Below are positions 21,139-35,686 of a DNA stretch of 39,821 bases, piece after piece. The stretch's first letter is position 1. Each line of letters starts with the position of its first letter. Below the pieces are notes generated by a model. The model did not search any database. It was not told the DNA's origin and worked only from the letters and a program-made list of their open reading frames with translations. A program made the translations under genes and the position numbers. This stretch comes from an uncultured Acholeplasmatales bacterium (GTDB lineage: Bacteria; Bacillota_I; Bacilli_A; Acholeplasmatales; Anaeroplasmataceae): positions 1 to 39,821 of the forward strand of contig CALUXR010000017.1 of assembly GCA_944324795.1 (NCBI GenBank). The letters run 5' to 3'.

Positions 21139-22158
21139 TTAACATTTATTAAAATAATCTTTAAATTTAATTTGATATATTTTAGTAATGATATCATCTA
21201 TTTCTTTAATATTTGCAGATTTAGGTAATTTTGTATTTTTATAAGCTTCTTCTAATTCATATTCTAATTTATTAAGATAATCATAAAATTCATCTTTAAC
21301 TGAACCATCATCATTTCTAAAATAACCATTTCTAATACTTAAAAGAAAATCTTTTTCTTCTCTATAAGTATGTAATGTATTATCTTTTAATATTTCAATG
21401 CCAGATAGATATAATCTTACTAAATGCATCATATGTTTATTTAAATGTTCATCATCTTTCTTTTTATTTCTTGCATTTATTTCATCTTTATAATCATTAA
21501 TAACATTATTTAATTGATCATTCATTTCTTTTAAACTACCAACTTTAAGATGTTTCATACAAATATCAACATAAATGTCATATATTTCATTATCATCTTT
21601 ATCTAGATATATTTTAAAATCATTTTCATTAATATTGTAGCGATTAATAAAGCTCATTGCTGCATTTTTAGCACTTCTAGTTATATGTTTTTTTCTTAAT
21701 ATTTCATCATTTTCACGTCTAGATAAGGCGTTTTCTAATTTATTTAATTGAGCTCTAGCATAACCAGAAAATGTATATTTTGCTTTTTGTGATAAAAATA
21801 AATGTCTATTATCTAATAATATTTTCCCAAGTGGTGAAACATAAATATAATCTTCATCTTTACAAAATAACATTTCAATAATGTTTGGATTACAACTAAT
21901 AGCTAGTTTAATAAATTTATTTAAACTATAGATAACAGTATCGGTTTTATTATCTATAAATTGTTCAAATGTAGTAGTGCCTATTAAATCAGAAAAAGTA
22001 TTTAAAGCTATTCCTCTAATATCTAAATCTGAATTATCATTATTAGTACCATATGCATAACTACCAGATACGCAAAGTAAAATAATATTATCTTTTAAAT
22101 GTTCATTTTTACTTAAAAAATCATATTCTTTAGTTGATAAAATTTCTTTTATATTCAT
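21139..22158 (-). CDS. RNA-repair-associated nucleotidyltransferase (COG3541-like)
   Basis: A DNA polymerase beta-superfamily nucleotidyltransferase of 339 residues. The N-terminal catalytic motif is VSGSYAYGTNNDNSDLDIRG (about 30-49), with GS, the YGT turn and metal-binding Asp44 and Asp46. This form, with a downstream helical domain, is the COG3541 type often found beside RtcB in predicted RNA-repair operons, exactly the arrangement here: it starts 8 bases after rtcB with a good GAGGTTAAG site. The likely role is end healing or nucleotide transfer on broken RNA in the cytosol; the actual substrate is unknown. The C-terminal half is Lys/Glu/Asn-rich and helical. Confidence 0.8.
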   Translation of the reverse strand: MNIKEILSTKEYDFLSKNEHLKDNIILLCVSGSYAYGTNNDNSDLDIRGIALNTFSDLIGTTTFEQFIDNKTDTVIYSLNKFIKLAISCNPNIIEMLFCKDEDYIYVSPLGKILLDNRHLFLSQKAKYTFSGYARAQLNKLENALSRRENDEILRKKHITRSAKNAAMSFINRYNINENDFKIYLDKDDNEIYDIYVDICMKHLKVGSLKEMNDQLNNVINDYKDEINARNKKKDDEHLNKHMMHLVRLYLSGIEILKDNTLHTYREEKDFLLSIRNGYFRNDDGSVKDEFYDYLNKLEYELEEAYKNTKLPKSANIKEIDDIITKIYQIKFKDYFNKC

Positions 22159-22166
22159 CTTAACCT

Positions 22167-23429
22167 CTATTCACACGCTTTAAAATTATAAATTGGTTTA
22201 ATTATTTTTTTAATTTTAACTGTTTCTTTAATATTATTTAATATTACATCTATTGGTTTGTAGGCCATTGGAGCTTCATCGATCGTATCATTGTTACAAG
22301 TTGTTGTATATATACCTTTCATTTCATTTTCAAATTCTTCTAATTTAAGGCTCTCTTTAGCCATTTTTCTTGACATTATTCTACCAGCACCATGAGGGGC
22401 AGAATAATTATAATCAGGATTAGATAAACCTTCACCTATAATTACACCATCACGCATGTTTATAGGTATCAATAAAGGTTCATTTAGATAAGCTCTTATA
22501 GCTCCCTTCCTTATTATTTTATCTTCTAAATCAATATAATTATGAATTGATTGAAAATAAGGTATCTTATAATCATTATAAACAAGTTCATTATCATTAA
22601 TTTTTAAATTAATATTAAAATATTTATCTAAAATATTTTTAGCTAAATAAAGTCTATTATATCTTGCAAAATTTTGACATATTTTAATATCTTCTAAATA
22701 ATTTTCTAAATCAAGACCACTAAGATATGCCATATCGCGATTAATTGTATCTAATTCTTCTTTTTGTCTTTCTCTTAATAATTTTAATTTTTCTTCTATT
22801 TCTTTAAACCTATTTTCTAATTTTAATTTATTTAATAAATCATTATATTCTTTTTGCATTCTTAATTTAATATTTTTATAAGCTGCAATATCTTGATAAA
22901 TATTAGCTACTTGTAAGCCTAAATTTCTTGAACCTGTATGTATTAATAAATAAATATCATCATTATCATCTTTATCAAGTTCAATAAAATGATTCCCTCT
23001 ACCTAAACTTCCTAAGCTATTAACTAACCATTTAATTTTTTCTAATTCATTAAAACAGTTTAAATTAATTAAATAATTATAAACTTTATTATAAGTATCA
23101 TCATCTAAATCATTTATATTTTTACCACTTGGTATTTGATGACATATTTCATCAAATTTATTTAAATTTATTGTTATTTTACCTAGATTTAAACATAAAA
23201 CTCCACAACCTATATCAACCCCTACAACATTTGGTATAACTTTATCAGTTAAAGTTATAGTAGTACCGATGACACAACTAGCACCAGCATGACAATCAGC
23301 CATAATCCTTATTTTACTATTTAAAGACATTTCATTGTCTAAAATATCTTTAATTTGACTTATAGTTATCTCATCTATTATATCACTATAAATTATAGCT
23401 TTATTATATTTTCCTTCTACTTCTAACAT
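22167..23429 (-). CDS. rtcB: RtcB-family RNA ligase
   Basis: Joins RNA 2',3'-cyclic phosphate or 3'-phosphate ends to 5'-OH ends using GTP and Mn2+. I start at ATG 23429 (420 aa); the ATG at 23447 is only 5 bases past a -10 box. Signatures (numbering from this start): HAGASCVIG, VDIGCG with Asp72 and Cys75, GRGNHF with His147, HTGSR with His164, His296 in SIHNY, and PHGAGR with His346, the expected guanylylated histidine. Compared with classic RtcB there is a helical Lys/Glu-rich insert around residues 185-230, and IPINMRDGVIIGEG replaces the usual Gly-Ser-Met region, suggesting a divergent subgroup. It forms an operon with the nucleotidyltransferase and is probably for tRNA or rRNA repair. 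Confidence 0.92.
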   Translation of the reverse strand: MLEVEGKYNKAIIYSDIIDEITISQIKDILDNEMSLNSKIRIMADCHAGASCVIGTTITLTDKVIPNVVGVDIGCGVLCLNLGKITINLNKFDEICHQIPSGKNINDLDDDTYNKVYNYLINLNCFNELEKIKWLVNSLGSLGRGNHFIELDKDDNDDIYLLIHTGSRNLGLQVANIYQDIAAYKNIKLRMQKEYNDLLNKLKLENRFKEIEEKLKLLRERQKEELDTINRDMAYLSGLDLENYLEDIKICQNFARYNRLYLAKNILDKYFNINLKINDNELVYNDYKIPYFQSIHNYIDLEDKIIRKGAIRAYLNEPLLIPINMRDGVIIGEGLSNPDYNYSAPHGAGRIMSRKMAKESLKLEEFENEMKGIYTTTCNNDTIDEAPMAYKPIDVILNNIKETVKIKKIIKPIYNFKACE

Positions 23430-23451
23430 ATTTTCACATCCATTCATAATT

Positions 23452-31086: not shown

Positions 31087-32112
31087 TTAACGTTGAACAC
31101 GACCAGAAGCATCTCCACCTGCTAAAGCTTCTACTTCAGATGTAGATACTAAGTTGAAGTCACCATTAATTGTATGTTTTAATGCAGAGGCAGCAACAGC
31201 GAATTCTAAGGCTTTACCTTGATCTTTAGGGTAAGTTAATAAACCATGAATTAAACCACCACTAAATGAATCGCCACCACCAACACGGTCAATGATTGGG
31301 TTAATATCATAACGTTTAGATTCATAGAATTCTTTACCATTATAAATTAAAGCTTTCCAACCATTATGAGTAGCTGAGAAAGATTCTCTTAATGTAGAAA
31401 CTACATATTTGAAACCAAATTTTTCAGCCATTTGTTTAAAGATTGCTTTATAACCTGAAGCATCAGTTTTACCACCTGTAACATCAGCATCTGGTTTGAA
31501 GCCTAAACATAATTCAGCATCTTCTTCATTACCGATACATACATCTACATATTGCATTAAAGGACGCATAATTGAAATTGCTTTTTCACTTGTCCATAAT
31601 TTCTTACGGAAGTTTAAGTCACATGAAACTGTAACGCCATGGCGTTTTGCAGCTTCACAGGCTAATTTTGTTAATTCTGCAGCTTTATCAGAAATAGCTG
31701 GAGTGATACCAGACCAATGGAACCAATCAGCACCTTCCATAATAACATCAAAATCAAAATCCTTTGGATCAGCTTCAGCAATTGCGCTATTAGCACGGTC
31801 GTAAATAACTTTAGAAGCACGCATAGAAGCGCCAGTTTCTAAATAATAAATACCAAGTCTATCACCACCACGAGCGATATATTTAGTATTAACACCATAT
31901 TTACGAAGTGCATTAACTGCACATTGACCAATTTCATGAGATGGAACTTTTGAAACAAAGTAAGCATCATGACCATAGTTAGCACAACTTACAGCCACAT
32001 TAGCTTCACCACCACCATAAACTACATCAAAAGAATCTGATTGAACGAAACGTGTATTACCTGGTGTAGATAATCTCAACATAATTTCGCCTAAAGTAAC
32101 AATTTTTGCCAT
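31087..32112 (-). CDS. kdgK: 2-keto-3-deoxygluconate kinase (PfkB family)
   Basis: Phosphorylates KDG to KDPG with ATP, the step before Eda. 341 residues; ribokinase fold. The substrate-side motif GGGEANVAV is at 33-41, the NEED motif (GNEEDAE, 194-200) that binds Mg and phosphate is intact, and the catalytic base is Asp281 in RVGGGDSFSGG with the anion hole before it. It is the downstream of two related kinases in the operon and has the more standard motifs, so it is the better KdgK candidate. It has AGGAG-like upstream signals. Confidence 0.9.
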   Translation of the reverse strand: MAKIVTLGEIMLRLSTPGNTRFVQSDSFDVVYGGGEANVAVSCANYGHDAYFVSKVPSHEIGQCAVNALRKYGVNTKYIARGGDRLGIYYLETGASMRASKVIYDRANSAIAEADPKDFDFDVIMEGADWFHWSGITPAISDKAAELTKLACEAAKRHGVTVSCDLNFRKKLWTSEKAISIMRPLMQYVDVCIGNEEDAELCLGFKPDADVTGGKTDASGYKAIFKQMAEKFGFKYVVSTLRESFSATHNGWKALIYNGKEFYESKRYDINPIIDRVGGGDSFSGGLIHGLLTYPKDQGKALEFAVAASALKHTINGDFNLVSTSEVEALAGGDASGRVQR

Positions 32113-32124
32113 TTTTAAATCTCC

Positions 32125-32589
32125 TTATTTATCTAATTTTATTTTTATTACGGCTTTTTCGATGGTTTTACCATCAACATCTAATTTTGCTAAATGAATA
32201 TCTTCAGGGAAAACTAATGCATACCCCTCTTCTAAAGTAATATAGATTTCATTTTCTGCTTTATAATGATATTTTGTAACATCTTTTTGTTCATTGTAAG
32301 GTGTAGTTACAACTAAACCTTTATCACTAATATCAGTATAGCCGAAACCTTCTTTACCTTTTAAAACTATTTGCATATCTAAATAGTTTTTATGTCCTTC
32401 AAAATAGCATTCTTCTAAAGGTCTAGCAACATATGTATCGCGATTAACATAAACATTATCACCATCAATTTGTGTTTTACCTTTAGGTAGTGCAAGTAGA
32501 TCATGTGTTAAAACAAAATCTATTGCTGTATCGATATTTTTACTTATTCCCTTGTAATGGGCAATATCTTTTAATTTTCCTACAATCAT
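32125..32589 (-). CDS. YhcH/YjgK/YiaL family protein
   Basis: A 154-residue cupin-like protein of the YhcH/YjgK/YiaL family (DUF386, formerly annotated beta-galactosidase subunit beta). The core YEGHKNYLDMQIVLKGKEGFGY and the late ALVFPEDIHLAKL (His) match that family, whose members occur in sialic-acid, rare-sugar and uronate operons and are thought to act on sugar anomers or sugar acids. Here it lies between two kinase genes, 4 bases after the second kinase's stop. The precise reaction is unknown. Confidence 0.85.
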   Translation of the reverse strand: MIVGKLKDIAHYKGISKNIDTAIDFVLTHDLLALPKGKTQIDGDNVYVNRDTYVARPLEECYFEGHKNYLDMQIVLKGKEGFGYTDISDKGLVVTTPYNEQKDVTKYHYKAENEIYITLEEGYALVFPEDIHLAKLDVDGKTIEKAVIKIKLDK

Positions 32590-32593
32590 AATT

Positions 32594-33625
32594 TTACCTT
32601 TCTACCTCGGCTGCTCCATTAGCTTTCATAAATTGAATAACATCATCTTTAGAGAAAATTGAAGCATCGCCATAAATAGTATGTTTTAATACACTTGTAC
32701 ATAAACCAAATCTAACAGCATAGCTAGGGTCATCAAAATTTTCAAGTAAACCATGGATTACACCTGATGCAAAAGCATCGCCGCCCCCAATGCGGTCAAA
32801 AATATTAAATCTAATTGGATTTGTTAATTCCCAACTTAATTCATCACCATTTAAGGCAAAGTAATAACCAGCTAAACTATTATCATTAGCAGTATAGACA
32901 ACTCTATCAGTACCAAATATATAATTTAAATTATATTTTTTAATCATTTTAGGGAAGACATTACGTCTCTTTTCTGATAAAGTTGCATCTTTTAATTCTT
33001 CATCTAAAGGAATTTCTAATATCGTATTAGCATCCCAGAAACTTGCAAAAACAATATCTACATAATGCATAAATTGTTGATAGACAGGTTTTGCTTCTTC
33101 TACAGTCCATAATTTAGCGCGATAGTTAAAATCAAAACTAACTTTAACGTTTCTTCTTTTAGCTTCTTGAACAGCTTTTAAAGCAACAGTTCTTACTCTT
33201 TCGCCAAGTGCTAAAGTTATACCAGAGATATGGAACCAAGTAGTATCTTTAAAAACTTCATCCCAATTAAATTCACCAATTTGTACTCTAGTTATTGCAC
33301 TATGTTTACGGTTATAAATAACTTTTGATGGACGACCACCAAAACCAGTTTCTAAGAAATAAATACCTAAAGTTGAAGATCCCCTAACAATGTAATCTGT
33401 ATTTACTCCATTAGCTTGTAAATGTCCTACAGCTCCATCACCAAGTTGATTTGGTGGAAGCTTTGACATGAAATAGCATTTGTGCCCTAAATGAGAAAGA
33501 GCAACTGCTACGTTAGCTTCACCACCACCATAATTTACAATAAAACTATGACATTGATTAATAGTAGCGTAATCTGGAGTTGACAAACGTAACATTATTT
33601 CGCCAAAAGTAACAATCTTCTCCAT
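32594..33625 (-). CDS. second PfkB-family sugar kinase, KdgK paralogue
   Basis: A 343-residue ribokinase-fold protein clearly related to the kinase at 31087-32112 (same opening EKIVTFGEIMLRLSTP and GGGEANVAV). Two adjacent ATGs (33628 and 33625) are possible; AGGTGA spacing favours the second. The catalytic base is kept in RIGGGDAFASG, but the NEED-type motif is replaced by ASFWDANTI, so Mg/ATP handling or substrate may differ. It may phosphorylate a different sugar acid, or be regulatory. It is the second gene of the operon after eda. Confidence 0.85.
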   Translation of the reverse strand: MEKIVTFGEIMLRLSTPDYATINQCHSFIVNYGGGEANVAVALSHLGHKCYFMSKLPPNQLGDGAVGHLQANGVNTDYIVRGSSTLGIYFLETGFGGRPSKVIYNRKHSAITRVQIGEFNWDEVFKDTTWFHISGITLALGERVRTVALKAVQEAKRRNVKVSFDFNYRAKLWTVEEAKPVYQQFMHYVDIVFASFWDANTILEIPLDEELKDATLSEKRRNVFPKMIKKYNLNYIFGTDRVVYTANDNSLAGYYFALNGDELSWELTNPIRFNIFDRIGGGDAFASGVIHGLLENFDDPSYAVRFGLCTSVLKHTIYGDASIFSKDDVIQFMKANGAAEVER

Positions 33626-33638
33626 CATGTCACCTAGA

Positions 33639-34289
33639 TTATTTCTTAGCTCTAGCTTCTTTTACAGCGTTTATAAATTGTTTTGCTAATTCTGTAACAC
33701 CTGCATAATCTCCCTTTTTAGCAGGAGCAGTTAAACTTGAACCAGCACTTACACATACAACACCAGCTTTAATCCATTCAGGAATGTTACCTAAATCAAC
33801 ACCACCTGATGGCATTAAATTAGCATATGGAAGTGGTCCATGTACATCTTTAATAAATTTAGGTCCTAAAATATCACCTGGGAATACTTTAATAACGTCA
33901 CAACCAGCATCTAAAGCCATTTTAACTTCTAATACTGTTTGAGTACCAGGAATATAAGGTACTTGATAACGATTACAAAGTTTTGCAACTTCTTCATCAA
34001 AACATGGGCTAACAATAAACATAGCACCATTTAAAATAGCTGAACGTGCAGTTTCTGTATCAAGAACAGTACCAGCACCAATTAAAACGTTAGGATCACC
34101 TACATAATTTTTAATTAAATTAGAGATGATTTCACCAGCACCAGGTACAGTATATGTAACCTCGATAGCTGTAACACCACCAGAAATACAAGCTTCAGAA
34201 ATCTTTAAACCTTTTTCTGTGCTCTCTGCCCGTACTACTGCGACTACACCTACATTAGCAATACGGCTTAAAACATCAAACTTTTTCAT
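33639..34289 (-). CDS. eda: KDPG/KHG aldolase
   Basis: Splits KDPG into pyruvate and glyceraldehyde-3-phosphate. Start is ATG 34289 (216 aa) with GAGG upstream; the frame runs back to 34334, but those codons lie next to the -10 box. Class I motifs: base Glu43 (AIEVTYT), GAGTVLD around 71-77, and Schiff-base Lys134 in VIKVFPGD. Trimeric in the family, cytosolic. First gene of the operon; upstream are a near-consensus promoter and a cre-like site. Confidence 0.95.
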   Translation of the reverse strand: MKKFDVLSRIANVGVVAVVRAESTEKGLKISEACISGGVTAIEVTYTVPGAGEIISNLIKNYVGDPNVLIGAGTVLDTETARSAILNGAMFIVSPCFDEEVAKLCNRYQVPYIPGTQTVLEVKMALDAGCDVIKVFPGDILGPKFIKDVHGPLPYANLMPSGGVDLGNIPEWIKAGVVCVSAGSSLTAPAKKGDYAGVTELAKQFINAVKEARAKK

Positions 34290-34338
34290 ATTTTTACCTC
34301 TTTTTATAAATTGTAGATGAAAACTTTTCACCAATTCA

Positions 34339-34367
34339 ATTATACTTTTTATGTCTTAAATTGTCAA
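34339..34367 (-). promoter_or_regulatory. promoter of the KDG operon
   Basis: Consensus TTGACA (34362-34367) and TATAAT (34339-34344) on the minus strand with an ideal 17-base spacer, one of the strongest-looking promoters in the window. Confidence 0.8.
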
Positions 34368-34381
34368 TGTAAGCGATTTAA
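34368..34381. promoter_or_regulatory. cre-like operator abutting the KDG promoter
   Basis: TGTAAGCGATTTAA fits the cre consensus at 13 of 14 positions and touches the -35 box. It shares AAGCGATTT with the malQ promoter site at 18925-18938. A similar CG-centred site, GAAAACGCTTTT (34427-34438), lies 13 bases before the -35 box of the divergent EIIC gene. Confidence 0.5.
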
Positions 34382-34451
34382 TTTTTCATTTAAAATGTCA
34401 TATTTTTATAGATTAAATTATTATTAGAAAACGCTTTTTAAAATTAAAAGA

Positions 34452-34479
34452 TTTACAATTTGTTAAAAATTAATATAAT
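34452..34479 (+). promoter_or_regulatory. promoter of the EIIC-like gene
   Basis: TTTACA (34452-34457) and TATAAT (34474-34479) with a 16-base spacer on the plus strand; the start of transcription would be near 34486. Confidence 0.65.
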
Positions 34480-34488
34480 AAAATAGAA

Positions 34489-34585
34489 TTAGCCGTTCCT
34501 AGCGGCTAAGATTGCGATTGTGTTAATCAAGCTATAGCGAATAATAGCACTAGGTAAAAGTATCCTAATATTAGAAAAGGAGGAT
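34489..34585 (+). ncRNA. candidate pseudoknotted regulatory leader of the EIIC gene
   Basis: TTAGCCG (34489-34495) and CGGCTAA (34503-34509) make a 7-bp hairpin with loop TTCCTAG. The loop bases CCTAG (34498-34502) are complementary to CTAGG (34550-34554). Between them are smaller stems, GATT/AATC (516-519 with 525-528 of 34,xxx) and GCTAT/ATAGC (34531-34535 with 34544-34548). Then ATCCT (34562-34566) can pair with AGGAT (34581-34585) and mask the AGGAGG site. The layout (compact knot plus ribosome-site masking) resembles a translational riboswitch, but I can match it to no known class. Confidence 0.4.
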
Positions 34586-34588
34586 TTT

Positions 34589-35686
34589 ATGGATACAACA
34601 AATTCTGAGGAAAAAATTTCTTTTAAAACTAAAGTAAAGAATTTCTTAGATAAAAAGAATGTACATCCCTCATTAAAAACTTATTTTATCGATGCTATGG
34701 GTAAAATGGCCCTTGGTTTATTCGCTTCGCTTCTAATAGGCACTATTTTTGATACATTAGGTACAATAACCACTTTAACTTTTTTTAATGATATTGCAAC
34801 CTATGCTAAAAATGCTGCTGGCGCTAGTATGGCTGTAGCTATTGGTTTTGGATTAAAATGTCCACCTCTTGTCTTATTTAGTTTAGTTGCAGTTGGGCTT
34901 GCTGGTAATACTTTAGGTGGAGCAGGTGGTCCTCTTGCTGTTTTTTTTATCGCAATAATTAGTGCGGAAATTGGAAAACTAGTATCTAATACTACAAAAA
35001 TTGATATTTTAGTTACTCCCCTTATAACGATCATTGTTGGCTGTGGTTTGAGTATAGCCATTGCTCCTTATATTGGAATTGGTGCCAACTACATTGGTGA
35101 AGCTATTATGAAAGCTACTGACCTACAACCTTTCTTAATGGGAATGGTTTTAAGCGTTACGGTTGGCATATTATTAACATTACCTATTTCAAGTGCTGCT
35201 ATTTGTGCATCTTTTGGAATTGTTGGCTTAGCTGGTGGAGCGGCTCTTGCAGGTTGTTGCTGCCAAATGGTTGGTTTTGCAATTCAATCATTTAAAGCTA
35301 ATAAATGGTCTGGTTTAGTATCTCAAGGTATCGGAACAAGTATGTTACAAATGCCAAATATTATTAAAAAACCAATTATTTGGCTACCTACAATCTTGAG
35401 TTCATTAATTTGTGGTCCTCTTGCAACTTGTGTTTTTAAATTAGAAATGAATGGTCCTGCTATTTCATCTGGCATGGGAACTTGTGGATTTGTCGGACCA
35501 ATTGGTGTTATTCAAGGTTGGTTAAATGATTTAAATAGCGGCATTAAAGCAAATATTACTGCTCTTGATATTTCAGGATTAATATTGATTAGTATCGTTT
35601 TACCAATAGTTTTAACTTTAATATTTCATTTAATATTTAAAGCTTTAAAACTTTATAATGATGAAGATTTAAAATTAGATTTATAG
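34589..35686 (+). CDS. PTS EIIC-like membrane protein (EIIC_2 family)
   Basis: A 365-residue polytopic membrane protein with about eight to nine hydrophobic helices after a polar N-terminus of about 40 residues. The Gly/Ala-rich segments and the stretches GFGLKCPPLVLFSLVAVG and MNGPAISSGMGTCGFVGPIG match the family labelled PTS EIIC 2 (PF13303). No EIIA or EIIB domain is fused or encoded nearby, so sugar phosphorylation during uptake is not supported by context; it may be a standalone transporter or channel. It is divergent from the KDG operon with shared CG-centred operators, so uptake of a uronate or deoxy-sugar acid is plausible, not shown. AGGAGG precedes the ATG. Confidence 0.8.
   Translation: MDTTNSEEKISFKTKVKNFLDKKNVHPSLKTYFIDAMGKMALGLFASLLIGTIFDTLGTITTLTFFNDIATYAKNAAGASMAVAIGFGLKCPPLVLFSLVAVGLAGNTLGGAGGPLAVFFIAIISAEIGKLVSNTTKIDILVTPLITIIVGCGLSIAIAPYIGIGANYIGEAIMKATDLQPFLMGMVLSVTVGILLTLPISSAAICASFGIVGLAGGAALAGCCCQMVGFAIQSFKANKWSGLVSQGIGTSMLQMPNIIKKPIIWLPTILSSLICGPLATCVFKLEMNGPAISSGMGTCGFVGPIGVIQGWLNDLNSGIKANITALDISGLILISIVLPIVLTLIFHLIFKALKLYNDEDLKLDL

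Follow-up and report, generated by a model that had tools for sequence, protein, structure and literature searches.

A conserved, genus-restricted RNA at the head of an EIIC_2 mRNA in uncultured Acholeplasmatales, a candidate translational riboswitch

A 39,821-nt stretch of DNA from an uncultured Acholeplasmatales bacterium (hereafter the window) contains, in the 5' leader of a gene for an EIIC_2 membrane protein, a 66-nt motif that is almost certainly a real, conserved, and uncatalogued cis-regulatory RNA. The best reading of this motif is a genus-restricted pseudoknot acting as a candidate translational riboswitch, to which we give about even chances. A first-pass annotation, made from the letters of the window alone, had already interpreted the leader as a translational riboswitch, and the analysis presented here partly supports that view.

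Organization of the leader

The features on which the argument draws are the following, in window coordinates:

34452–34479, plus strand: promoter TTTACA-N16-TATAAT, with a predicted transcription start at about 34486
34489–34554, plus strand: RNA motif (domain of about 66 nt) in the 5' leader of the EIIC_2 gene
34489–34495 and 34503–34509, plus strand: P1 hairpin, 7 bp, TTAGCCG pairing with CGGCTAA
between 34495 and 34503, plus strand: P1 loop, 7 nt, TTCCTAG
34498–34502, plus strand: putative pseudoknot 5' strand CCTAG, inside the P1 loop, invariant in six species
34510–34528, plus strand: P2 hairpin GATTGC-GATTGT-GTTAATC, with a nearly invariant loop CGATTGYG
34531–34548, plus strand: P3 hairpin GCTAT...ATAGC, with a closing stem that is kept and a loop whose length differs among species
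34550–34554, plus strand: putative pseudoknot 3' strand CTAGG, invariant, 48 nt beyond CCTAG
34560–34565, plus strand: putative anti-start element GTATCC, with its partner GGATAC at 34591–34596, spanning the start codon
34578–34583, plus strand: Shine-Dalgarno (SD) sequence AGGAGG
34589–35686, plus strand: EIIC_2 (PF13303) membrane protein, 365 aa, start codon at 34589
33639–34289, minus strand: divergent KDPG/KHG aldolase, first gene of a KDG/uronate operon

The 7-bp hairpin, the CCTAG in its 7-nt loop, the complementary CTAGG 48 nt further on, and small stems between the two strands had all been recognized in the first-pass annotation, and each lies where it had been placed, the small stems being P2 and P3. 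The motif begins at predicted position +3 to +8 of the transcript in all six species that carry it. No terminator was found on the plus strand between the motif and the EIIC_2 gene. On the minus strand, a palindromic sequence resembles a terminator by score, but was rejected because no minus-strand gene terminates there. A leader-peptide reading frame was likewise not found: the G000 leader contains no ATG, no SD sequence lies upstream of P1, and a possible TTG start is not common to the species.

Conservation and distribution within the genus

An EIIC_2 orthologue is present in all eight species examined of one Acholeplasmatales genus of uncultured gut bacteria, and the motif precedes it in six of them (G000, G007, G004, G003, G002, and G006). 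The two motif-less species (G001 and G005) retain the same gene behind a promoter and a short plain leader. A covariance model built from the six-species alignment, which scores its members at 87–94 bits, detected a single copy per carrier genome, always before EIIC_2. The six carriers split from G001, G005, and the outgroup G013 in the gene tree with a support of 1.0, and since they form a clade, a single gain or a single loss accounts for the distribution.

Four-fold degenerate sites of EIIC_2 share 34–50% identity between carriers (63% for the close pair G002/G006), and are near saturation in such AT-rich DNA. Yet the motif alignment retains 46 invariant columns, which indicates that the motif is under strong selection; the stretch between the motif and the start codon cannot be aligned among carriers. 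Strict conservation across the six carriers extends to the P2 loop, the joint between P2 and P3, the joint between P3 and the tail, and both knot strands. What leads us to judge the motif real is that six species conserve it although their neutral sites have diverged nearly to saturation. For one sequence alone, significance is weak: a knot of such geometry is also present in about 2.6% of 290-nt upstream regions after shuffling, and the fold z-score of the whole leader is −2.1.

Secondary structure and putative pseudoknot

For all six sequences but G004, the P1–P2–P3 fold is the unconstrained minimum free energy structure of the motif taken alone, and standard pairs occupy 97% of cells in the six-sequence alignment, compared to 23–42% for controls with slid partners. 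Covariation is limited. Two pairs of P1 columns changed on both sides, 14:26 (C-G to U-A) and 15:25 (A-U, C-G, and G-U), while P2 and P3 display one-side changes with pairing retained, and P1 carries one mismatch in each of two species (G007 and G004). The count of pairs with both-side changes was matched by 145 of 500 shuffles and is thus not exceptional.

The two knot strands are invariant across the six species, so that their pairing receives no evidence from covariation, and this invariance would be consistent with pairing. Loop 1, from the P1 5' strand to CCTAG, measures 1–2 nt, loop 2, from CCTAG to the P1 3' strand, 0 nt, and the third loop, occupied by P2 and P3, 40–43 nt in the three carriers measured, a geometry which fits a classical pseudoknot. 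We infer that this pseudoknot forms in solution. In the minimum free energy structure of the full G002 leader, the knot strands form a nested helix in place of P1, which makes a switch between P1 and the long-range pairing possible as well.

Searches beyond the genus

Applied to 160 genomes of the order, 295 of the phylum, and 395 of the class, the covariance model recovered the six carriers and no other credible member. Weak matches (at most 28.7 bits, E 0.003 per genome) occurred at the rate expected by chance, and those inspected had no knot strands or were coding-like. The first-pass annotation had proposed a covariance search over leaders of EIIC_2 homologues; across 92 such loci, this search returned members within the genus but nothing credible beyond it. 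A knot-geometry scan of 96 distant EIIC_2 upstream regions yielded 5 matches, among them three near-identical relatives, where 2.5 were expected, and neither approach found the motif in distant homologues. The earlier expectation that homologous genes share the pairings and show compensatory changes therefore holds for the six close orthologues, which have the pairings and in which both partners have changed at two P1 pairs, but does not extend to distant EIIC_2 homologues. Pattern searches of IMG/VR revealed no motif member, a sequence search of the PDB no relative, and literature searches nothing on this leader and almost nothing on the EIIC_2 (PF13303) family, which is mentioned in a single paper.

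At the gathering cut-off, Rfam 15 offered no family for the leader, the only match in the window being a tRNA elsewhere, and preQ1-II (RF01054) was not among the leader matches of a permissive scan (to E 10). A sub-threshold similarity was to the type-P3 twister (RF03154), at 15.6 bits against a cut-off of 39.9 (E = 1.4). That the leader fits no recognized class, as had been remarked from the letters alone, is thus borne out at both stringencies. An Rfam scan of 40 EIIC_2-homologue loci found no riboswitch that would hint at a ligand.

As a separate observation, the closely related roe-deer Clostridia loci L028, L029, and L042 carry a different knot-like leader, TGCCTGCCGCCGCAGGCA...GGCGGCG, within the final 70 nt preceding the EIIC_2 match and ending near the match start.

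Link to translation and proposed mechanism

The last base of the knot lies 9–11 nt upstream of the SD sequence in the short leaders of G003, G002, and G006, which, together with the lack of a terminator, points to translation as the level of control. The corresponding gap is 22–60 nt in G000, G007, and G004. These three species keep the GTATCC:GGATAC pairing over the start codon, which is absent from the short-leader species, and in G007 and G004 the GTATCC is located in the loop of an additional hairpin, ACTTATAG...CTATAAGT. A different mask, ATCCT pairing with AGGAT across the ribosome site, had been suggested in the first-pass annotation; both strings exist (34562–34566 and 34581–34585), but the mask occurs in G000 only and is not conserved. 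Overall, the region between knot and start codon differs in length (20–69 nt) and type among carriers while the knot domain stays constant, and such a constant domain followed by a changing downstream part is the usual division between aptamer and expression platform, typical of riboswitches. Computed folding energies indicate that blocking the knot strands hardly alters the accessibility of the SD sequence and start codon. No coupling between knot and ribosome site emerges from computation, and the switch itself is accordingly a putative one.

We propose that the motif is a cis-acting structured RNA at the extreme 5' end of the EIIC_2 mRNA, in which P1 and the loop-to-tail pairing would form an H-type or HLout-like pseudoknot, with P2 and P3 filling its third loop. 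This aptamer-like domain would control translation: a ligand, probably a metabolite tied to the cargo of the transporter, may stabilize the knot and thereby change, in one direction or the other, the access of the 30S subunit to the SD sequence. In short-leader species the knot could act on the SD sequence directly through its closeness (9–11 nt), and in long-leader species via the start-codon hairpin GTATCC:GGATAC. Points that count against a riboswitch are the invariance of the knot strands, the unexceptional number of both-side changes, the P1 mismatches in two species, the SD and start-codon accessibility that hardly depends on the knot, the restriction to one genus and one gene, and the two species of that genus which run the gene motif-less.

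Should the motif prove to be a riboswitch, its class would be very small, limited to one lineage, and unrelated to any catalogued one, and would give a concrete instance of the numerous rare riboswitches whose existence has been predicted (PMC10043782). Its ligand would in turn name the substrate of EIIC_2 (PF13303). As a short element present in six and absent in two species of one genus, it can be easily tested.

Alternative explanations

The same RNA could instead be bound by a regulatory protein or small RNA, which would recognize the P2 loop (CGAUUGYG) or the knot and control translation. We regard this as the likeliest of the rivals but still unlikely, even though the P2 loop is exposed and hardly varies and the motif is linked to a single gene, like many protein-bound leaders. 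No candidate protein is known, and proteins with a CAT_RBD domain (LicT/BglG) were detected in none of nine genomes by a search that was positive in control genomes. Combined with a leader that contains no terminator, this excludes the best-known type of sugar-gene regulator.

The knot may also simply protect the 5' end, blocking 5'-to-3' decay of the RNase J type and holding the mRNA at a constant level with no switch involved. The position of P1, which is predicted to begin at +3 to +8 in every carrier, the stability of this hairpin, and folding without coupling to the SD sequence would all agree with such a stabilizer. A hairpin alone would suffice for this role, however, and the conserved P2 loop, joints, and knot strands exceed what it needs, making this explanation unlikely.

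A DNA operator, with the P1 inverted repeat just past +1 binding a repressor, seems very improbable. While the repeat overlaps the transcription start, and the window includes both conserved LacI/CRE-like sites in the same intergenic region and a LacI-family gene, the conserved block spans 66 nt and takes in single-stranded joints, P2, and P3, the P3 loop is variable in length, and the covariance model identified no second copy per genome. Finally, a small self-cleaving ribozyme heading the mRNA is hardly credible: the compact knotted size and the sub-threshold twister similarity (15.6 versus 39.9 bits) would suit one, but this similarity has an E of 1.4 with a mismatched P1 of the twister model, and the motif is constantly associated with one gene.

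The EIIC_2 gene, its divergent operon, and the possible ligand

The downstream gene was assigned to EIIC_2 (PF13303) at 285 bits. The predicted structure of its product is of high confidence (pLDDT 91), and the model has a fold of the maltose/glucose PTS EIIC type, with about 300 residues aligned to MalT (Z 15.0) and E. coli PtsG IICB (Z 14.8). No EIIA or EIIB partner domain was found among the EIIC_2 neighbours scanned, and HPr proteins occur in all nine genomes examined.

The divergent operon encodes a KDPG aldolase, two KDG-kinase-like proteins, KduI, a KduD-like SDR, and an ABC transporter, and its aldolase adjoins EIIC_2 in all eight species of the genus, motif carriers or not. Outside the genus, KDG genes were found near EIIC_2 at a single one of the Clostridia loci (L010), so the link between EIIC_2 and KDG is a genus-level one. 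EIIC_2 may plausibly take part in the uptake or export of sugar acids. Uronate or KDG as the ligand, the option raised in the first-pass annotation, is a guess drawn solely from the divergent KDPG-aldolase operon, which is also found in the two genus species without the RNA. We consider it quite improbable that the motif is a new lineage-confined riboswitch class whose ligand is a sugar acid (for instance a hexuronate, KDG, or KDPG) and which regulates translation of an EIIC-fold transporter via a pseudoknot whose third loop holds two hairpins. To our knowledge, no natural riboswitch is known for hexuronate, KDG, or KDPG.

Several further features of this region were recorded. Transcription of the divergent aldolase operon is served by a promoter that matches the consensus perfectly, TTGACA-17-TATAAT (34339–34367, minus strand), whose −35 element is overlapped by a LacI/CRE-like site, GTCAATGTAAGCGATTTA (34363–34380), invariant in all six carriers, and a second conserved LacI/CRE-like site, AGAAAACGCTTTT (34426–34438), sits just upstream of the EIIC_2 promoter. 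A near-palindrome, GATGAAAACTTTTCACC (34313–34329), located where the aldolase operon is predicted to start, is kept as GATGAAAANNNTTCACC in the six carriers and is the probable operator of a local LacI-type regulator. The operon includes two paralogous KDG-kinase-like (PfkB) genes with a YhcH-family gene between them (31087–33628, minus strand). Elsewhere in the window, an RtcB RNA ligase gene beside an RlaP nucleotidyltransferase-like gene forms a compact RNA-repair pair (21139–23447, minus strand).

Comparison with known systems

LicT/BglG antiterminator (RAT) leaders are likewise leader RNAs of sugar-transport genes, but here the leader has no terminator and the nine genomes no CAT_RBD protein. 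The idnO motif (SRC-69-1) is a candidate riboswitch of Bacillota linked to sugar acids and the PTS (PMC11109978), but is a large multi-stem RNA located between manX and idnO, in another gene context. The pnuC motif (SRC-10-1) and other rare single-gene candidates resemble our motif in having few members, one gene family, and a pseudoknot linked to the ribosome-binding site (PMC8632094), but differ from it in structure and gene.

The closest architectural parallels are found among preQ1 riboswitches. In preQ1-III, the expression platform is remote from an HLout pseudoknot, and the ribosome site is masked by a second pairing (PMC11625349). The leader would likewise join an HLout-like knot to a putative platform apart from it and a second masking pairing, although it has no sequence match to preQ1-III, its motif is short (66 nt), and the second pairing occurs in only three of six species. 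The preQ1-II class (RF01054) occupies leaders of Bacillota and controls translation through an HLout pseudoknot made of a 5' hairpin loop and a 3' tail, with an inner hairpin (PMC11625349). Shared with the leader are the proposed loop-to-tail HLout-type architecture, the presence of internal hairpins, the position in a Bacillota 5' leader, and the presumed control of translation. By contrast, the leader yields no Rfam match, has two internal hairpins and not one, and precedes a gene that is not a queuosine gene; moreover, the 3' strand of the knot is the SD sequence itself in preQ1-II, while here it is CTAGG, 9–60 nt before the SD sequence. The leader is thus a member of neither class, and its architecture resembles the HLout pseudoknots of both preQ1-II and preQ1-III (PMC11625349).
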